Shown: piece after piece, positions 20,801 through 34,774 of the stretch
How positions within the stretch are numbered: the stretch's first letter is position 1
Layout of the letters: the number at the start of each line of letters is the position of its first letter
Position numbers and translations under genes: made by a program
NCBI GenBank assembly: GCA_943704525.1
Contig: CALSCQ010002671.1
Coordinates: forward strand, 1 to 35,000
Source of the DNA: Pigoraptor vietnamica
Lineage: Eukaryota; Opisthokonta; Filasterea
Direction: 5' to 3'
Length of the DNA stretch: 35,000 nucleotides
The notes under the pieces: model-generated
What the model saw: only the letters and a program-made list of their open reading frames with translations
Databases searched by the model: none
What the model was told of the DNA's origin: nothing

Positions 20801-23374
20801 GGACGCGTGGGGGGCGGTGTCGGCGCTCAAGACGCTCGCTGGCTTTGCGGCGCTGCCCGCGGACATACAGCAGTCGGAGAAGCGCTGGAAGAAGTGGTAC
20901 GAGGCCGAGGTACCCGAGCTCGAGCAGCTGCCGCAGGACTGGAAGGCGTGCGGGTCGTTTGACCGCCTGTGCATCGTCCGCGCGCTCCGCCCGGACCGCA
21001 TGACGAGCGCCGTGTCGCTCTTCATTGGAGAGACCATGGGACGCAAGTACGTCGACCTCCCGCCCTTCCGCCTCGCCGACGCCTTGGCCGACACCGACGC
21101 CGCGTCGCCCATCTTTTTCGCGCTGTCCCCCGGTGCCGATCCCATCAAGGACGTCGAGGACCTCGCCGCTGCGACCGGGCGCGCCGCTTCACTGGCCGCC
21201 GTGTCGCTCGGCCAGGGACAGGAGGGCCTCGCGGAGGATCGGCTGCGCGCGTGCCGTGAGGGCGGCGGGTGGCTGCTCCTGCAAAATGTGCACCTTGTTC
21301 AGCGGTGGCTCCCGCGCCTGGAGCGGATGATCGACGAGTTTGCGGAGGAGGGGACGCACCCGGACGCGCGCGTGTTCCTTACGGCCGAGGCGCTGCTGGG
21401 GAACGGGGCGCTGGCCGTCCCTGCCAGCCTGCTCGAGGCCAGCGTCAAGATCACTAACGAGCCGCCCACCGGCCTGCGCGCGAACATGCTGCAGGCGCTC
21501 GACTCGTTCACCCCGGACGCGTACGAGCAGTGCAGCCACGAGGAAGCGTACAAGGGCCTGCTCTTCTCTCTCTGCTTCTTTCACGCCGTCGTCGTCGAGC
21601 GTCGCCGCTTTGGGCCGCAGGGGTGGAGCCGCGCCTACCCCTTTGGCGTGGGCGACCTCAAGATATGCCGCGATGTCCTCCTGAACCACCTCGAGGAGCA
21701 GGCGACGGTGCCCTGGACCGACCTGCGCTACATTATCGGCGAAATCATGTACGGCGGGCACGTGACGGACGCGTGGGACCGCCGTCTCTGCTCGACGTAC
21801 CTTGACGTCCTCTTCCGCCCGGAGATCCTCGACGGTCGCGCCGAGCTTGCGCCGGGCTTTGCGCTGCCGCCCGTGGGTGACCTGGCCGCGCACCGCCTGC
21901 ACGCGGAAGGCATGCCCGCGGAGAGCCCCTTCCTGTACGGCATGCACCCGAACGCCGAGATTGGCGTGTGCATGGCGCGCACGGAGCTGCTGTTCCGCAG
22001 CATCCTTGAGCTGCAGCCGCTCGTCCGTAGCGGCGGGGCCGGCGTCGCCGTGGAGCACAAGGTCAAGGCGGCGCTCGACGGCATCCTGGACCGCCTGCCG
22101 GACACGTATCCCATTGACGAGCTCACGCAGCGCGTGACGGAGCGCACGCCTTACGTGAGCGTGGCCCTGCAGGAGTGCGCCCTCATGAACAGGCTCGTGG
22201 CGGAGATTCGGCGGTCACTGACGCAGCTGGAACTCGGCCTCAAGGTTGGTTTGTGTGGCTCGTGGGGCGTTGCAAGTGTGCGTCGAGTGCTCGCCTGTGC
22301 CCGCGTGCGTCGCCCAATTATAGTCTCATTGGCCGTGTCTCCGCAGGGCGACCTGGCCATCAGTGACGTCATGGAGTCACTCATGCGCGATCTCTACCTC
22401 GATGCCGTGCCCAAGTCGTGGGCGGCGCTGGCCTACCCCTCCCTCAAGAGCCTCGGCCCGTGGGTCGACGACCTCCTCCAGCGCGCCCGCGAGCTAGAGT
22501 CGTGGATCTCGTCGTTTAGCCTGCCGGTGGCCGTGTGGCTGCCCGGTCTGTTCAACCCGCAGGCATTCCTCACGGCGGTGATGCAGGTCGCCGCGCGCAA
22601 GAACGACTGGCCGCTCGACAAAGTGAGGCGCGGTCCACTGTGTGGCCCAGTCAATTCTCATGGATGTGCTGATGGTCCCTCTCCCATCTGTGGAGTCAAT
22701 TCTCATGGATGTGCTGATGGTCCCTCTCCCATCTGTGGAGTCAATTCTCATGGATGTGCTGATGGTCCCTCTCCCACCTGTGGCTCATGGACGTGCTGAT
22801 GGTCCCTCTCCCATCTGTGGCCCAGTCAATTCTCATGGATGTGCTGATGGTCCCTCTCCCATCTGTGGCCCAGTCAATTCTCATGGATGTGCTGATGGTC
22901 CCTCTCCCATCTGTGGAGTCAATTCTCATGGATGTGCTGATGGTCCCTCTCCCATCTGTGGCCCAGTCAATTCTCATGGATGTGCTGATGGTCCCTCTCC
23001 CATCTCCGCAGCTCACTCTGCAGTGCGAGGTCACGCGAAAGGAGCGCGACACCATCGACGACAGCCCGCGCGACGGCGCCCTGCTGTGGGGCCTGCATCT
23101 CGAGGGCGCGCGGTGGGACGCGGCGCTGGGCGTGCTGCAGGACGGCGCACTCAAGGACCTCCACCCGCGCATGCCCGTCATGGGCGTCCGCGCCGTGCTC
23201 GCACAGGGCGACCGCGCGGTCGACGGCTCCGGTGCATCGCGCGGCGCGTACCGCTGCCCCGTGTACCGCACGCGCGAACGCGGGAGCACCTACGTGTGGA
23301 GCTTCAATCTGAGGACCAAGGAGTCCCCCGCCAAGTGGACGCTCGTTGGTGTCGCCCTCCTTCTCTCCGTGTGA
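8874..23374 (+). CDS. Axonemal outer-arm dynein beta heavy chain (DNAH9/11/17 class)
   Basis: Force-producing ATPase of the outer dynein arm. Ten exons (8874-9070, 9139-9472, 9533-9652, 9711-9924, 10033-10250, 10314-10601, 10693-11151, 11265-22244, 22347-22622, 23012-23374) join in frame to 4482 aa, the usual length of this class. An in-frame ATG at 8850 would add 8 residues. An N-terminal tail runs to about residue 1800. Then come AAA1 (GPAGTGKT about 1863, Walker B CFDEFN), AAA2 (GPAGVGKS about 2144), AAA3 (GPGGCGKT about 2476, VDDLNMP) and AAA4 (GVGGSGKQ about 2818). The coiled-coil stalk with microtubule-binding tip lies about 3040-3370, followed by AAA5/6 and the C-terminal domain. FYFVSSADLLDILAKG, AWGCFDEFNRIS, YGGHVTDAWDRRLC, PNAEIG and the terminal CPVYRTRERGSTYVW and WTLVGVALLL place it with the beta-type chains rather than gamma, DNAH5/8 or inner-arm chains. 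Exon 8 is almost 11 kb. Intron 9 is a minisatellite. Confidence 0.97.
22649..23011. repeat. 45 bp minisatellite filling dynein intron 9
   Basis: Eight units of a 45 bp repeat: 22649, 22694, 22739, a shortened one at 22784, 22824, 22872, 22917 and 22965. Some are separated by an extra CCC. Each contains ATGTGCTGATGG followed by a pyrimidine-rich TCCCTCTCCCATCTG. The last unit changes CTGTGG to CTCCGCAG and is itself the 3' splice site of the intron 22623-23011. The array therefore multiplies the branch-site-like CTGAT and polypyrimidine region of the intron. The open frames through it are repeat artefacts. Confidence 0.96.
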
Positions 23375-23533: not shown

Positions 23534-24592
23534 TCAGAGTTTTTTTAGCGCCGCCGTGGCGTGCGCATCCAGCGCCTCTTCCGCCTTGTCCACGCTCGGC
23601 ACCGCAAGTGCCTTCGTGTACCACTCCTTCGCCTCGGCGCCCTTCTTGAGCTGCACATACGTGTCGGCAATCGTCACCATGTTGCGCTTGAACGCCGCGT
23701 CGATCGCAGACGCCTGCGCAGAAAAGGGGCAATGAGACCCAGCGACAAGCAACCGGTTGGCGCCTGTGCGGGGGTAGGCGAGCCTGGCAGCAGCAAACGA
23801 CGGGCCCTTCGCGCATACCTCGAGGAGGTGCTTGAGCGCCTCCTCCACCGTGGCTTGCGGCGGGGACGCAAACAGAGTCGCGGCCAGCTTGCGCTCCATC
23901 CACCCGATGTTGGCCACGCCGAGGCACCACTTGCCGAGAATGTGGTGCGATGTCGCGTCCTTCGGGTTGAGCTGAATGGCTCGCTCGATGTGCTCGCGAA
24001 TCTTGAACGCGTTCTGGATCTTCTCCTTTGTGCTGATAAAGTCGCCCTGCACGTGACAGCCCCGTGAGTCCATCCACTGCACCGCACACCCACAGCCCCT
24101 CTGTGCTCGCTGCATGCATCGTGTCTCCAATTGCAGACTTTCGCCGCACGATCAGCCCGCGCACAACCACCCACCAGCCCGCTCAGGAGCACCGCATACC
24201 ACTTGTGGCACGCAAAGTTCTCGGGCGCACGGGCGAGCGCCTTGCCCACGAGCTCGAACCCTGCGCGTATGTTCGTCTCCTTGCCGTGCTTGTCGGCAGC
24301 CTCTGCAGGCGACAGGCGTAAGCTGCGCACGAAAAGAGTACACGCCCGCGCGACAAACTCACCCTCGGCAAGGTTATAATAGGCGCGCCCCTGGCGCCAA
24401 AGGAGATCGGCATTCTCCGGCTCCTTTTCCAACGCGCCCTGTGAGTGCGAAGTGTGGCGAGTGTGAAGTGAGTCAGACAGTGCGTATGTGCACCGGCGAG
24501 GGCGTGTGGATAGTGACCTTGAGCCGATCAAACGTCTGCTTGTACTGGCCCTTCTCGTGCAGCTCGTCCGCCTCCTTCAGCGTCGCCTCCAT
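23534..24592 (-). CDS. Regulator of microtubule dynamics family protein (RMDN/FAM82)
   Basis: Five exons (24592-24518, 24438-24363, 24302-24175, 24046-23819, 23713-23534) join in frame to 228 aa, matching the tetratricopeptide-like helical domain of RMDN1-3. Diagnostic segments are GALEKEPENADLLWRQGRAY, ENFACHKWYAVLLS, IREHIERAIQLNPKDATS, HHILGKWCLGVANIGW, RKLAATLFASPPQATVEEA, NMVTIADTYVQL and AKEWYTKAL. Family members are tied to microtubules, mitochondria and ER contacts; the function in this organism is inferred. The N-terminal membrane anchor of animal RMDN2/3 is not visible. A further 5' exon cannot be excluded, because the chosen ATG lies in an exon with open sequence before it. The gene converges with the dynein gene (about 160 bp between stops) and diverges from the RRM-PDE gene. 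Confidence 0.88.
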
Positions 24593-25003: not shown

Positions 25004-28000
25004 ATGCGTGCGATGGCCGCGCAGGGGTGCACGCTGTTCGTAGGCAATCTGCCCTACGACCTCAGTGCGGATGCGCTCTTTGGCCTCGTCGCAGTGGTCG
25101 CGCCCACCACCTCGGCGTCGCTGGCGGAGAAGAGCGGGCGCTCACTTGGCTATGGGTGGGAACATGGGCGCAATGTGCACGCAAACCCGCCGGCTATTTC
25201 GCATTTATGGCTTTAGGATAGTGTGTGCCCAAGCGCGGAGAGCTCAGTCGTGTCCCGCTGTCGCAGGTTTGTCGAGCTGCACAGCGCAGATGACGTGCGC
25301 GCGGCGGTGGCGCGTTTGAACACGGCTCGCATTGGCGGGCGAAGCATCATCGTAAAACCGGCGGCAATACCCGCGGCGCTGCGGGGACAGCTGCGGACAG
25401 TGTCTGGGACGGGCGCCGCGCCGTACGAGCGCCGTGTGTCGCTGTGCGAGGCGAACGGGGATCACGCAGACGCCCAGACCCACGCCCTCCCGTCGACAAG
25501 TTGTGGCGGTGCGTCGCTGCCAGCCTCTGCTGTGGTGCATGCTTGCGTACTAAGGCGCATGGCTTTTGCAGACCTGATTACGCGTTTCAGCGCGGCGTCC
25601 CTCGCACTGGCGAAAAGCGGTGCGTCCGCCGCCAATGCAGATGCGGTTCGCGCGTGCGCGTCGTCCGCGTTTGCCGCGTTGGTGCGGGGCGTTGCCGGCC
25701 CGTACTTTGCCGTTGGCGATACGAGCTGCAGGGACCTGAGGTTGATTGGAGGGAGCTCGAACGAGGGAATCGAGTCACTTGCGCGGTGGGTTGCATGTCT
25801 TCTCATCACAATTTGGTGTCATCCGACTCACCCGCGCCTTTTCTGCAGACGGGCGGCGACCACACGGCGAGTAATGACGGCGACGCCCCCGGATGTGCCG
25901 TTTCCCGCGCTATTTGTGCCGGTTGCATCGGGCAAGGGTGGCATGGACTCCGTGTACGTCGCGCGCGGCGGCGACGGCGGCTTCCCGCAGGACGTCCTTT
26001 CCTCTGTGGACATGCTGGCGGAGCACGCTGGGGCCGCTCTTGCGTCCGTTGCGGCCCGCGTCGCGGAAGGGGAGCGGCGAACCATGTCCGAGAACATGCT
26101 GAGCCTTCTCGAGGACGTGTACCGTGAGCTGGACTCGCGCGTGCTCACGGCCAAGCTGCTCGCGTATGCATCGCACCTTGTGAGCGCGGACCGGTGCTCC
26201 CTCTTCCTTGTGGACGAGACGGCCGACGAGCTATATGCGGAAGTGTTCGACGGCGACAATGGCGCCTCGGGCGGGCAGGGCGAGCAGCGAATCCGCTTCC
26301 CGCGCTCGAAGGGCATTGCGGGCTATGTGGCGCGGACGGGCGAGCCGCTCAACATTCCCGACGCGTACGCCGACGCGCGCTTCAACCAGGAAGTGGACCG
26401 CGCCACGGGCTACCGAACGCGCAGCATTCTGTGTCTCCCCATTCGCAACCAGCACAGCGCGGTGATTGGCGTCGCCCAGCTGGTGAACAAGGCGTCGGGC
26501 GCGTTCACCGTCGAGGACGAGCGGCTGTTTGCGCGCTTTCTGCTCTACTGCGGCATTGCGCTGCAGCACGCGCGCGCGTTTGAGCTCGAGCGTGCCGTCA
26601 TTGCCGAGCACGAGGTGTTGCTCAGCGTCGCGCGCGGCGTGTTCGGCCACCTGGATGTCGACAGCGTCCTCAACCACGTCATGGCCACGGCCGCCCTGCT
26701 CGTGCGCGCCGAACGGTGCTCGGTCTTCCTGGTTGATGCGCAGCGTCAGGAACTCTATGCGCGGGTGTTTGAGGTCGGGAGCCTGGACGCGAACGTGGCT
26801 GCGGCGGTGGCGCGGAGGGACAGCACGGACGAGGCCGAATCCGAGGGCCTGAAGAAGGGGCCCCCGCGCGAGGTGCGCTTCCCGATCGCGCAGGGCATCG
26901 CCGGCTACGTGGCACGCACGGGCGAAACGCTGAACATACGCGACGCCTACAGCGACCCTCGCTTCAATCGCGACATTGATCGCGAGACGGGCTTCACCAC
27001 ACGGACGATTCTCTGCGTGCCCATCGTGTTGGGCGACGGCGAGGTCATTGGTGTTACGCAGCTGTTGAACAAGGCGGGCAACGTCTGCTTCACGCCCCAG
27101 GACGAGCGGCTGCTGCGCTGCTTCAGCGTGTTTTGCGGCATTGCCATCAAGAACGCCCAGCTGTTCGACAAGGCGATCGAGAACGAGCGGCGCGCCCGCC
27201 TTGTGCTCGAGGTCATGTCGTACCACGCCAAGGCCCCCGAGGAGGACGTCGCTCTGCTCGCCGCCGCGGCCCCCGCGCCTGCATCGTCGTTTGGCGTGGA
27301 CCGCTTCACGTGCGACCCGCGCGGAATGCCGTGGCTGGACCAGTGCCGCGCCGTAGAGGCCATGTTCCGCGAGTTTGGCTTTCTCGAGCATTATCGTGTC
27401 CCCGTCGAAGTGTTCCGGCGGTTTGTGCTGACCGTGCGGCGCAACTACCGGCAGGTGCTGTACCACAACTGGGACCACGCCTTTGAGGTGACGCAGACGT
27501 GCTATGCGCTGATGAAGTCGCACACTGCGAAACTCGCGGGCGCCCTGCGAAGGCACGAGCTGTTCGGGATGCTCGTCGCCGTGCTGGTGCACGACATTGA
27601 CCACCGGGGCGTCAACAACTCGTTCCTTCGCACGGCCGAGGGCGAGCTGTGGTCACTCTACGGCGATTCGTCCATTCTGGAGAAGCACCACTTCAGCCAC
27701 TTTGTTACGCTCGTCTCGTGCGACACGCTCAACATCTTCCAGGGCCTGACGTCGCAGGAGGCGTACAAGAACATGCTCGACCGTATCCGCCCGGATGTGC
27801 TTGCGGCATGTGTGATTGTGTGCGTGTCTTTAGAGAACGGCTGCTGTTGTCCTGAGCGTCACGAATGCGCAGACATCAAGGCGTGCATCATGCACACGGA
27901 CATTGCGAACCACTTTGTCAACCGGAATGAGTTTAAGGCCATTCTCGCCGAGACAAACGGCGTGCTTGACCGCAAGAGCTCCCGTCACAGGCGTTCGCTA

Positions 28001-28498
28001 AGGTTCGTGCGTGCGCCTTCTGTCTTGCTTTCGAATGCCACATGCTCAGCACCACACGCCGTGCATGCACGCACTCACACGGGCGAGCGCGCAGTGGCAT
28101 GATCATGACGGCGGCGGACATTTCGGCGATTACCAAGCCGTGGGAGCAACAGTCCAAGGTGGCGCAGCTCGTGTACGGCGAGTTTTTCGACCAGGGCGAC
28201 CGCGAGAGCCGCATGGGCACCGTTCCGCTCGAGATGATGGACCGACACCGCGCGAGCGTACCGAAGCTCCAGCTGGGATTCATCGACTACATATGCCTCC
28301 CGTGCTTCGAGCTGCTTGCGCGCTATCTCGAGAACAGCCAGCCGATGGTCGACGGCGTCCGCGCTAACAGGGCAATGTGGCAGCGCATCTATGACGAGGT
28401 GGGTTGTGCGACGGTTTGGTGGTGGAGGTGGCGTGAGTGTGGCTTGTACTGAACCCTGATCCATTGTGCAGGAACTGGCGCGAGGTGACGCCGAGTGA
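25004..28498 (+). CDS. RRM-GAF-GAF cyclic-nucleotide phosphodiesterase fusion
   Basis: Class I phosphodiesterase hydrolysing cAMP and/or cGMP. Exons 25004-25155, 25267-25508, 25572-25785, 25849-27809, 27873-28002, 28095-28398 and 28472-28498 join in frame to 1009 aa (start at 25004 or 25013). Residues 9-85 form an RNA-recognition motif, with RNP2 LFVGNL (11-16) and RNP1 LGYGFVEL (48-55) spanning intron 1. About 133-280 looks like a degenerate GAF. GAF-A (300-446) and GAF-B (470-640) each keep the NK...F...DE signature (N416/K417/F422/D426/E427 and N610/K611/F617/D621/E622) seen in PDE2/5/6/10/11. The catalytic domain (about 690-1000) has HNWDH (H742, H746), HDIDHRGVNN (H784, D785, H788), HTDIANHF and EFFDQGDRE, plus a glutamine before GFIDYICL. 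The GAFs probably bind a cyclic nucleotide allosterically. The RRM and PDE share one uninterrupted frame in exon 2, so a separate RRM gene is unlikely but needs transcript proof. An alternative ATG at 25559 lies within intron 2. Confidence 0.85.
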
Positions 28499-29825: not shown

Positions 29826-32800
29826 ATGCGCGAGCTTATCGTCGGCCTTCTCCGGAGCCTTGTGGCCGATCGCTTCGGTGAACGGGCGGTGCGCGTGGTG
29901 GATTTGCGCGCTGCTGCGCTGGCGGAGAAGATTGCGGATGAGCCCGCGTCGTGGGGCGCGTGCCCCAATGCCCTCGCCGCGGCCTACGTCTCCGTGGTCG
30001 CTGAATATGCGAACCTGCGCTCGGGCGCGCACGTGCTCGAGCTGCTCGGGCAATACTGGGTGGATTATGTGAGCCGCAACGGCCTCGGCAAGTGGGTATT
30101 GACGGGTTTTGTTCCGCATTGTCAATGTCGTATGCCACACAAACTCACTGAGTGCGACTGCTTTCACTGTGCGCTGCAGGCTCTTCCAGCAGCTGGGCGG
30201 GTCGCTCCGCGAGGCACTGCGGCACCTCAGCCGCCTGCACGAGGACCTCGTCGCCTCTGCGTCCGACGAGCGCCTCGTGTTGCCAACGCTGTACATGCTC
30301 GACACGGACGGCGTCAATTTCGAACTGCACGCCGACTTTGGTGCGCCCGGGTGCGGCCCCATTCTGAAGGGCATCGTGGACGGCCTCGCGCGCACGTACA
30401 TCAAGGCGTCGAACGTGGAGGCGTCGGTGGTGGCGCCGACGGAGGGCGACTCGCCGAATGTCGCGGTGTTGGACGTGGTGATACGGCCGAGCGACCGGCG
30501 CAGGGGGTCGCTCACGCCCATACCGCCGGGATCCCTGCGCATCTGCGGCGACAAGGTGGAGGAGATATTTCCCTTCTACATTGCGATCAACTACAAGCTG
30601 CGCATCTCGCACATGGGGGCGTCTCTGCAACGCGTGCTGCCGGACCTTCTGCTGGGGATGAACGTGTTTGACGCGTTTGAGCTCAACAGCCCTCGGCTGG
30701 CCTTCAGTGACTACACGGCGCTCGTGGACCACGCCAAGTGCCTCTTTTCGCTCTCGCGCGGCGGCATTGAGCTCGTCGGCCAGATGTTGCACCTTCCCGA
30801 GGACGAGGTCGTCGCCTTTCTTGCCACGCCTCGCATCGACTCGCTGCGCAAGGCCTCGGGCAGTACGGACGCCGCGACGCCCCTCTCGACCGCCGCGGCG
30901 TTTTCGCTGCTGAGCATTCCGATTCACTCGCGGGTGTTTGACTGTCCGTACGACAGCGACGACCTGGACCTGGACGACGGCCCCGACGAGGCGAACGGAG
31001 ATGCGCTGTCGGCCGTGCTCGCGGTGCCGGACTCTGAGCTGATCTGGACGCTGTCGCAGGGGCTGCAGAAGAAGAAGTCGAAGGAAGACCTCCTCGCGTC
31101 GATGAAGAAGGTCACAAAGTTCTTTGGGGAGGCCGATCCCTCGATCGACCACGGCTCGCAGGTGGGCGCAGTTGGATGGCCTCTATTCTGGAATGGCGCC
31201 CGCTTTCTTTGAGTGTTGCACGTGCTGTGTGCTGACGATCGATGGTGTCCCCCCTTTGCAGCTCGCGCAGAGCCAGATGGACCTCACGGCGCCCGTCGAG
31301 AAGATGCTTCTCGTGCTGCAGCGCCTGAAAAGCTCGGTCGACGTCGACCTTGCGACGGACATTGACTTTGTGATTGGCGAACTCACGTCCAACTACGACG
31401 TGTACGTTCCCAATTTGGAGGCGCGGTTGTCCATGGACAGCTCGATGGATTCCGAGTTCTCGGATTATCTCGAGTCGTTCTTCCCCCGGCAGGCGTCGCT
31501 CAAATTTCGCCAGAGCTCCACGCTGAAGCGCTCTAGCAAGAGCTCGCTCAAGAGCCTCCTCAACATTGCCGAGTCCTCGGAAACGGCGTCGCACGAGGCC
31601 ACCCCGGAGGAAGCCTCGCCCTTGCCCGGCGGCAACGTGTCGCGCCAGGCCTCGATGCGCAACTCGCAGGGCCCGCAGAGCTCGTCCGCCTCGCAAGGTG
31701 TCAAGGTGCGCTCCCCCTGTGCTCTCAGTGCGCGCCTATGCCGGGCTGTGTGACGAGGATTGGTTGATGCGGTGCACGGTATTGATCTTTTCCCGTCTCC
31801 ATCCAGACGCCCGAGTCGTCGCTGCCGTCGTCGCGATCGAATTCCATCGTGGCCGTGTCGGCGCCCGTCGACCGCGAGGGGTATATGACGAAGCGGGGCG
31901 GGCGTGGCGTGATGAAAAACTGGCGCCGGCGCTTTTTTGTGCTCAGCGGCAGCCTGATTTATTACTATAAGAACAGTCGGAAGGTGCGTGTCAGGGGTGG
32001 CTGGTGGTCCCGTGCCATGGTCCCGTGCGTGTGGATGCTGATGTGCTCGTGGTCCCGTGCCATGGTCCCGTTCGTGTGGATGCTGATGTGCTCGTGGTCC
32101 CGTGGCATGGTCCCGTGCGTGTGGATGCTGATGTGCTTCGCGCCTGCACACGCACACGCAGGACATGAAGCCGCTCGGCGTCATTGATCTGCAGGAGTTC
32201 AACACGTGCCGCGCGGTGAAGCGGAAGGACGTCGTCTGCATGGAAATTGCGCAGGCGAAGATCGACACTCGCGCTTATTATGCGCACGCCGACACTGAAG
32301 CAGAGGTGCGTGTGAGGCCTGTATCGGCGCCGTGTGTGCCAGATGCAAGTTTTGCTCACGGATTCTTTGTGCGTGCGTGTGTCACGCGTAGACGCGTGAG
32401 TGGATTGCGGTGGTATCGGCGCGCATCGCGGAGCTCCGGGCGGATGGCGGCAACGGCGCGATCGAGAGCTTTGCGGATCGCCGAAAGCGCGCGTTCAGCG
32501 AGAGCAGCAACGAGAAGACGCCGGTGTCCGATGACGACGACGACGAGGACGAGGACAACAGCGAAGACGGTGGTCGCACGCCCGAGTCGCAGAGGTGCGT
32601 GCGTTTGGAAATTGGGCCGGTTGTTCCTGAGAAGCGTGCACGTCCGTGCGCTTCGAATCTCATGTTTGCCTTTCTTTTCCAATCAGGAAATATCGGAGCT
32701 CGAACCTGGCTCCCGCACCGTCGGATGCGCCGGCGCCTGCTGCGCCGCCTCCCGCTGCCGCCGCCCCCGACGGCACTGCGACGCGGCTGGAAGCGGTGTC

Positions 32801-34005
32801 CGAGGCACTCGTGAGCGTGCAGCGGCCGCTTGGCCAGGCCGAGATTGACAGCGTGGCGCTGCAGGCGCGCACGGGATTGCTCGAGGACCTCGACTTCAAC
32901 GTGTTCAAGGCGCACGAGCTGACGAACGGCGGCAGCCTGCGCTGGGTCACGCGCGAGATCCTCAACAAGTTTGACATTATGCCGAAGCTGGGGATTGACG
33001 GCGCGCGGCTGGACCGCTTCCTGCTGGCAATTGAGCGAGGGTACAAGGCGGAGAACCCCTACCACAACGCCATTCACGCGGCGGACGTGACGCAGACGAT
33101 GTACCACTTTCTGTCGACGCTCGGCCTCGCGCAGTACCTGTCGGACCTCGACATTTTCTCTGCGGTAATTGCGGCCGCCATCCACGACTACATGCATCCG
33201 GGGCTGAACAACGCGTTCCACATCAACGCGCGGTCGCCCGAGGCGATGCTGTACAACGACCAGTCTGTGCTCGAAAACATGCACCTGGCGCGCGCCTTTG
33301 AGGTCATCTCGCGCGACGAGTGCAACATCTTCAGCGCGCTGTCTCCGGCGGACGCCCGGCACGCGCGCGGCGTGGTGATCCAGATGGTGCTGAACACGGA
33401 CATGAGCCTGCACTTTGAGCTGCTGGGCAAATTCAAGGGCGCGCTGCCGAGCCACGAGCTCAAGCCCGACGAGACGCTGCCGAACTCGACCATCCTGCTC
33501 ATCCTCGCGATGGCGCTGCACTGCGCCGACGTCAGCAACCCCGTCAAGTGCCGCGAGCTGTACCTCGAGTGGGCGCACCGCGTGATGGACGAGTTCTTCA
33601 ACCAGGGCGATATATCCGCACCCGCACTGCGTCTGTAATGTGCGTGCAGTCCCGATGCGCGTGCGTGCAGGTGTGCTGGCATGCCCCTGTGTCTTCAGAA
33701 GTCTCTTCACGCATGCGTTGACGTTGTGTGTCTGTGAACCCGCCCCCTCCCCCAAACCCCGTTCCTCCTTGACTCGGCCGCACATGGAGCGCCGTCTCGG
33801 CATGCCCATCAGCCCCTTCATGGACCGCAACTCGGCCACGATGGCCAAATGCCAGAGCTCGTTCATCGGCTACATTGTCGAGCCTCTCTACAAGCTCTAC
33901 GCCACGTTCCTCCCCCAGCTCGGCGACGCCTGCCTCGTCCACCTGCGGGACAACCGCAGGATCTGGGAGGAGAACGCCGTACCCACACCCACAGAGCACC
34001 ACTGA
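29826..34005 (+). CDS. H-NOX-HNOBA-PH cyclic-nucleotide phosphodiesterase fusion
   Basis: Exons 29826-30091, 30180-31161, 31262-31705, 31807-31983, 32162-32305, 32392-32594, 32687-33611 and 33784-34005 join in frame to 1120 aa. Residues 1-185 match the H-NOX (heme NO/O2-binding) domain of soluble guanylate cyclase: VLELLGQYWVDYV, LGGSLREALRHL and RLHEDLV, with H109 at the place of the proximal heme histidine (His105 of sGC beta1). About 205-310 is HNOBA, the PAS-like partner domain (EIFPFYIAINYKLRI, VLPDLLLGMNVFDAFEL, LVGQMLHLPEDE). About 417-470 resembles the PDE8 linker (LTAPVEKMLLVLQRL). A serine-rich stretch follows, then a PH domain (about 588-685; REGYMTKRG, NWRRRFFVL, EWIAVV) and an acidic spacer. 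The PDE domain (about 790-1115) has YHNAIHAADV (H865, H869), AIHDYMHPG (H905, D906, H909), LHCADVSNP and EFFNQGD, closest to PDE1/PDE8. No cyclase domain is present. The expected role is gas- or redox-regulated cyclic-nucleotide breakdown at a membrane. The last intron is AT-AC. Confidence 0.88.
32004..32138. repeat. Three-copy 45 bp minisatellite in intron 4 of the H-NOX-PDE gene
   Basis: Units start at 32004, 32049 and 32094 with only a few differences. They occupy 135 of the 178 nt of the intron 31984-32161. Each carries GGATGCTGATGTGC, which resembles the GGATGTGCTGATGG core of the 45 bp dynein-intron repeat. Confidence 0.93.
33612..33783 (+). other. U12-type AT-AC intron in the H-NOX-PDE gene
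   Basis: The conserved PDE frame runs to EFFNQGD at 33611 and resumes at ATG GAG CGC at 33784 (MERRLGMPISPF). No GT-AG pair fits this junction. The intron begins ATATCC, ends CGCAC, and has TCCTTGAC about a dozen bases before its end. These are the 5' site, 3' site and branch site expected of a minor-spliceosome AT-AC intron. It is phase 0 and 172 nt long. Confidence 0.88.
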
Positions 34006-34191: not shown

Positions 34192-34774
34192 TTATGCCGT
34201 GCCCTCGTACCGCACTTCCTTGCCCGTCTTTTGGATGGCCGCAAGCAGCGTGTCCTTGGGGGCGCTCCCCGTCACTGTCACGCGCTTGTCGGGGATGGAG
34301 CACTCGACATTCTGCACGCCTGTTGCGGAAAGAACGACGCCTGAGCGCCAAGCCGTAATAGGACAGCGCGGCTCCAGCGACTACGACGCGCACCATGCAC
34401 ACACGGCTCAAGGTCACTGCAGCCCGAAGACGACTCACGCGGCCAAAGTACAAGCGCACGCTAATGGAGTTTGACACATACTATGCACTGCGCATGCGCG
34501 CACTTCACGCTGCAAGTGCATTCAAACACGGATTCCTTCCTGCACAAACACGCCTAGCGCACCGCCGGACGCACACACACTGCCCCCGCTTCTATGCATG
34601 ACAAGGAGTGCGCATACCTTCCACTCGCTTAAGCACGCGCGTCACCGCTCCAGAGCAACCCTCGCAGGTCATTGCGACGAAAAACACGTGCTTCTGCGAA
34701 CGAAATGCAGCCGAGAAGTGTCACGCTTCGCCAGCGCAAGAAGGCGTCGGAAAACAGCCACCCACCTCCGTCAT
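34192..34774 (-). CDS. ATX1: ATX1/ATOX1-type cytosolic copper chaperone
   Basis: Small HMA-domain metallochaperone that carries Cu(I) to P-type ATPases of the secretory pathway. Three exons (34774-34766, 34693-34618, 34319-34192) join in frame to 70 aa, the normal size for ATX1. The Cu-binding motif MTCEGC (M-x-C-x-x-C) lies at residues 11-16, followed by SGAVTRVLKRVEGV, the second-strand segment KRVTVTG and the family's C-terminal KTGKEVR at the metal-site loop. The first coding exon contributes only three codons (M, T, E). Its GAG/GTGGGT donor and the TTTCGTTCGCAG acceptor are good, but a different start cannot be excluded. Intron 2 (298 nt) is long for this locus. The gene converges on the H-NOX-PDE gene with 186 bp between stops. 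Confidence 0.93.

Follow-up and report, generated by a model that had tools for sequence, protein, structure and literature searches.

In the filasterean Pigoraptor vietnamica, a single gene joins the sensor half of a soluble guanylate cyclase (sGC) to a cyclic-nucleotide phosphodiesterase (PDE), a fusion that we regard as confirmed at the level of a DNA gene model. The gene lies at 29826-34005 on the + strand of the window, by which we mean the whole 35,000-nucleotide stretch analyzed here (positions 1 to 35,000 of contig CALSCQ010002671.1, assembly GCA_943704525.1); the window has a G+C content of 64%, contains zero Ns, and is part of a 32.5-Mb genome in 1,395 contigs. When the model was rebuilt from splice sites, eight spliced exons gave a stop-free frame of 1,120 codons plus a stop, with coding bias in every exon, which bears out the eight in-frame exons proposed in a preliminary description of this DNA. 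The domain order given there, H-NOX, HNOBA, PDE8-like linker, PH, and PDE, is recovered in one continuous gene model by Pfam and a linker profile, and the four families that it named (HNOB, HNOBA, PH, and PDEase_I) each score above the curated Pfam cut-off. The features of the gene are as follows, with the basis of each in parentheses.

29826-30091 (+): exon 1, start codon and N-terminal half of H-NOX (splice model, HNOB match; coding in its own frame alone)
30180-31161 (+): exon 2, C-terminal half of H-NOX, then HNOBA, residues 214 to about 309 (splice model, Pfam, alignments)
30238 and 30331-30345 (+): landmarks in exon 2, the codon of the proximal His109 and the site of the lost YxSxR motif (alignments)
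31262-31705 (+): exon 3, PDE8-like linker (residues 422-470, 31277-31423), then a Ser-rich stretch (alignment, linker profile)
31807-31983 (+): exon 4, Ser-rich stretch, then first part of the PH domain, YMTKRGGRGVMKNWRRRF (Pfam, PH matches)
32162-32305 (+): exon 5, second part of the PH domain (splice model, Pfam, PH matches)
32392-32594 (+): exon 6, end of the PH domain, then an acidic low-complexity stretch (splice model, Pfam)
32687-33611 (+): exon 7, low-complexity stretch, then the main part of the PDE catalytic domain with YHNAIHAADV, AIHDYMHPG, and HCADVSNP (Pfam, PDE4D alignment)
33612-33783 (+): intron 7, U12-type AT-AC, ATATCC...TCCTTGAC...AC (splice model; U6atac in the genome)
33784-34005 (+): exon 8, end of the PDE catalytic domain with MAKCQSSFIG and the invariant Gln, and the stop codon (splice model, Pfam, PDE4D alignment)

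Exons and introns were scored for codon usage with a measure trained on a dynein open reading frame (ORF) in the same window. All eight exons score above zero in the frame of the model (0.22 to 0.58 bits per codon) and below zero in both other frames, while the seven introns reach -0.47 to 0.06 bits per codon in the best of three frames, with intron 4 alone above zero. Introns 1-6 have GT-AG borders. The remaining intron begins with ATATCC, ends with TCCTTGACTCGGCCGCAC, and carries TCCTTGAC ending 10 nucleotides before its end; it fits the U12-type AT-AC pattern of an ATATCC donor, a TCCTTRAC branch point, and an AC acceptor. A U6atac RNA is present in the genome (81.4 bits; G000:C932:8234-8352, L063). 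Several sibling PDE genes (for example L014, L015, L025, and L026) are interrupted some two codons earlier, at an apparent CAG/GT donor, so the minor-class intron sits nearly at the position of an apparent major-class one. Separately, reading of the sequence by eye shows a short tandem repeat within intron 4 (window 32000-32135).

The same evidence bears on whether the stretch holds one gene or two. The frame of exon 2 stays open through intron 2 until a stop at 31212, and an in-frame ATG is present at 31277, so that a short H-NOX-HNOBA protein followed by a separate linker-PH-PDE protein could be drawn. Only 64 bases lie between this stop and this ATG, however, which leaves scant room for the first gene to end and for a promoter of the second, and intron 2, which lacks coding bias, is bounded by a GTGGGC donor and a CCCCCCTTTGCAG acceptor. 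In the sibling PDEs L064-L068 the linker comes, as read by eye, after a hydrophobic segment and ahead of the PDE. The PDE8-like linker between HNOBA and PH, akin to one found in sibling PDEs, also disfavors two genes. We consider two neighboring genes very unlikely and reject them on the DNA evidence of codon bias, splice signals, and spacing.

The sensor half of the single-gene model begins with HNOB at residues 5-164 (30.7 bits against a cut-off of 25.5, E = 3.6e-7) and continues with HNOBA, the better of whose two stretches spans residues 214-281 (49.4 bits against 23.4, E = 5.2e-13). The latter also matches PDB entry 2p04 (E = 2.4e-12), and its identity as HNOBA is well supported. The H-NOX domain can be aligned to Nostoc Alr2278 (E = 5.5e-9) and, start to start with M1 on M1, to human beta1, the sequence of which was checked over residues 1-283. 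The proximal histidine is kept: His109 falls on beta1 His105 and on the His of NLH in Alr2278. P124 is kept as well, aligned with the conserved proline P118 of beta1. The YxSxR motif is lost, with Ala140, Phe142, and Ala144 (A-x-F-x-A) in place of beta1 Tyr135, Ser137, and Arg139, and the Alr2278 alignment sets YQSTR against A-x-F-x-A in identical columns. With all three residues gone, heme and gas binding are not to be assumed. The preliminary description had a gas or redox signal controlling nucleotide destruction, a claim not supported as worded, even though the proximal His is kept.

What this sensor half does has two readings that we consider about as likely as each other. According to a review, YxSxR steadies the heme propionates and is absent from moth sGC alpha; the alpha H-NOX carries no heme, which is now ascribed to an extension at its N-terminus that blocks the pocket (PMC8196705). 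We see an even chance that the window protein carries a pseudo-H-NOX of this heme-free kind, serving dimerization, protein contact, or another ligand, with the PDE controlled otherwise by the PH domain or by phosphorylation of the Ser-rich stretches. The A-x-F-x-A sequence and the alpha precedent favor such a role, as does the failure of an exon-by-exon search, itself weak, to find a nitric oxide (NO) synthase in the genome. Against it stand the retained His109 and P124 and the absence of an alpha-type pocket-blocking extension, since the window protein begins level with beta1. The other reading, a PDE truly regulated by NO, carbon monoxide (CO), or O2 in which His109 and other propionate contacts hold the heme, is one we advance tentatively. 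His109 lies in an alignable stretch and the HNOB score is above cut-off, but the Y, S, and R of the motif are all missing. Heme binding by the H-NOX domain, with sensing of NO, CO, or O2, is accordingly a possibility that we put somewhat short of even.

After HNOBA, residues 422-470 are recovered by a linker profile based on four sibling PDEs; in that search they outscored all 998 shuffles and ranked just under a provisional PDE8A linker sequence. Compared directly with this provisional PDE8A sequence, residues ~423-471 gave a Smith-Waterman score of 48, against a mean of 23.4 and a standard deviation of 4.3 for shuffles, and 0 of 2,000 shuffles equaled it. The likeness to the siblings is visible by profile alone: tblastn of the sensor half, linker, and PH domain against eight sibling PDE regions returned no match at E 0.1, and a search of the PDB with the linker gave no meaningful match (best E 0.87). 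We grade the assignment as a PDE8-like linker as one of moderate strength.

The PH domain occupies residues 586-681 (49.1 bits, E = 9.2e-13). It matched 34 sequences of solved structures, with TAPP1 first (1.9e-14), then cytohesin-2 and DAPP1, and the K...WxxR stretch aligned with those matches. TAPP1, cytohesin-2, and DAPP1 favor 3-phosphoinositides, as the entry name for DAPP1 also states. The PH domain of the preliminary description is thus upheld, with phosphoinositide binders among its best solved matches. A single stretch of the protein exceeds the hydrophobicity threshold of 1.5; as this falls within the PDE domain, the protein has no predicted membrane anchor.

At the C-terminus, where an sGC has its class III cyclase, the window protein has PDEase_I (residues 864-1095, 285.7 bits, E = 4.2e-85), and Guanylate_cyc is not among the seven Pfam families listed for it up to E 1. 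An alignment with PDE4D extends over 313 residues (E = 1e-67) and matches HNxxH, HDxxH, the metal Asp, and the invariant Gln. These fall in YHNAIHAADV (864-873), AIHDYMHPG (903-911), HCADVSNP (1017-1024), and MAKCQSSFIG (1067-1076), motifs whose residues presumably play the usual metal-ligand and glutamine roles. The complete catalytic domain with metal-binding residues that was first read from the letters is therefore present in its conserved motifs, and the protein is very likely an active PDE. Among the best 60 of 150 structure matches, PDE4 ranks first (232 bits), followed by 6ezu, named 'Phosphodiesterase' (225), PDE1 (221), PDE7 (193), PDE8 (188), and then PDE3A and PDE9. The catalytic domain is therefore not of PDE8 type in this ranking, as PDE4, PDE1, and PDE7 all outscore PDE8. 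Because the best scores are with the cyclic AMP (cAMP)-specific PDE4, cAMP and not cyclic GMP may be the nucleotide under control, although a cAMP preference would be a similarity-based guess.

Taken together, the gene probably encodes a single soluble or peripheral-membrane enzyme in which an sGC-type sensor half, H-NOX plus PAS-like HNOBA, would be set on a PDE8-type linker, a PH domain, and a class I PDE. This linker resembles one apparently carried by sibling PDEs after membrane segments. The protein would most likely be a dimer, with a change in H-NOX/HNOBA passed through the linker helices to the PDE, which may act on cAMP alone or hydrolyze both nucleotides. Through its PH domain the enzyme may be placed at membranes rich in 3-phosphoinositides. 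Alternatively, the sensor half might act as a heme-free regulatory or dimerization module, like the H-NOX domain of sGC alpha.

Besides the lost YxSxR and the missing NO synthase, several observations weigh against this design. The fusion is a prediction from genomic DNA. The linker scores modestly against the profile, at 12.1 bits for residues 422-470 and 13.7 for the full-length protein, two of the four sequences behind that profile are closely related (69% identical), and the linker used as a single query matched only itself in the genome. Because the PH domain and low-complexity stretches of more than 100 residues on each side of it separate the linker from the catalytic domain, a relay from linker to catalysis would be less direct than in PDE8, and no PH domain of this kind was found in the eight sibling regions at the tblastn threshold. 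A canonical sGC was not detected in the genome by searches of limited sensitivity. Human beta1 gave 67 matches, among which the window gene alone reaches residues 1-317, at E 0.011, and the other 66 begin at residue 318 or beyond; with the window gene itself so weak in this search, the lack of an sGC is unproven. A genome-wide search with the HNOB family had zero matches and missed even the exon-split window gene, so it is weak negative evidence. Searched with the window sensor half, the genome returned two matches, both the window gene itself. With the same single-protein query, which reaches close relatives only, 0 of 10 pattern matches in viral contigs and 0 of 62 in prokaryote genomes were confirmed as relatives.

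In the wider genome, Guanylate_cyc gives 96 pieces and PDEase_I gives 44 pieces over 18 contigs. HNOBA has eight matches elsewhere, all of them confined to the C-terminal end of its 216-position profile, with starts at position 174 or beyond. Seven of the eight were read by eye rather than by profile scan, and the eighth has no locus. A kinase-like sequence before the signaling helix was seen in four of the seven (L002, L003, L005, and L006, that of L003 in another frame) and could not be judged in L004, L007, and L008. As candidates for canonical sGCs these genes were set aside, and they are taken as receptor-type cyclases. In this layout, L002, L003, L005, and L006 resemble animal receptor guanylate cyclases.

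On the PDE side, we fetched eight sibling regions and scanned nine chosen ORFs from five of them, plus the upstream PDE of the window, with Pfam. An ANF_receptor ORF stands upstream of the PDE in two of the five (L065 on C1379 and L068 on C10), and a periplasmic-binding match below cut-off does so in L066 (C165). Additional receptor-side domains comprise EGF in L068, EGF-like sequence by eye in L065, and a sub-cut-off fn3 in L066. By eye, all three have a hydrophobic segment and a linker-like start between receptor and PDE, and hydrophobic segments over threshold precede the linker in L064 (one) and L067 (several). The receptor-PDE joins were read across separate, unspliced ORFs, and we describe L065, L066, and L068 as apparent receptor phosphodiesterases. 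Since the linker of siblings comes after N-termini of receptor or membrane type, a sensor-linker-PDE arrangement is suggested as a working design. Receptor-linker-PDE may be general in this genome, with the window gene its cytosolic counterpart bearing an sGC sensor.

Other genes share the window. Directly upstream on the same strand is the second PDE gene (25217-28356), with two GAF domains and then a catalytic domain. The window also holds a dynein heavy chain gene, probably axonemal, so the organism is probably flagellated; near the 3′ end of its ORF (~22650-23050) is a tandem repeat whose translation repeats SHGCADGPSPICG. On the - strand are ORFs with a heavy-metal-associated (HMA) domain (34192-34380) and a regulator-of-microtubule-dynamics (RMD1-3) domain (23534-24151).

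Sensors common to cyclases and PDEs are already known, GAF domains among them, and H-NOX/HNOBA on a PDE adds a variant. PDE8, laid out as REC-PAS-linker-PDE, likewise passes from a PAS-like domain through a similar linker to the PDE (on the provisional PDE8A sequence), whereas the window protein has H-NOX/HNOBA for REC/PAS and adds the PH domain and low-complexity insert. With sGC beta1 (HNOB-HNOBA-coiled coil-cyclase) it shares H-NOX followed by HNOBA, aligned start to start, and the His105 equivalent, but it lacks YxSxR and has linker, PH, and PDE in place of the cyclase. Its H-NOX-like domain, in which the heme motif is incomplete, recalls the pseudo-H-NOX of sGC alpha (PMC8196705), which differs in its pocket-blocking N-terminal extension and its output domain. 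Rh-PDE of choanoflagellates joins rhodopsin to a PDE (PMC7590022), a fungus has a rhodopsin-cyclase (PMC4046227), and the diatom Seminavis robusta has a bifunctional guanylyl cyclase/PDE (PMC5485032). As in Rh-PDE, a sensor type also known on guanylate cyclase is here joined to a PDE; Rh-PDE is a light-sensing membrane protein, unlike the predicted soluble window protein with its H-NOX/HNOBA and PH. The Seminavis robusta protein, too, recombines cyclic-nucleotide enzymes within one chain, but as cyclase plus PDE rather than an sGC sensor half on a PDE. Among the matches listed from titles and abstract openings of the open-licence literature, none described a fusion of H-NOX or HNOBA with a class I PDE. 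The novelty suggested in the preliminary description is judged on this literature rather than on eukaryotic protein databases, and priority for the fusion is unproven.

One broader proposal, which we regard as unlikely, is that in this lineage both guanylate-cyclase sensor types, the ANF-type ectodomain and H-NOX/HNOBA, moved onto PDEs through one shared linker, and that with no canonical sGC an NO- or O2-type signal would be read only as nucleotide destruction at 3-phosphoinositide membranes. If the fusion is as modeled, the sGC sensor module would be portable in eukaryotes and could be coupled to the destruction of nucleotides, in the manner of rhodopsin in Rh-PDE. The protein would then be a natural test case for two questions, whether outputs besides a cyclase or kinase can be driven by H-NOX/HNOBA and whether YxSxR is required while the proximal histidine stays. 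Together with the apparent receptor-type PDEs of this genome, it would point to cell signaling through regulated degradation.

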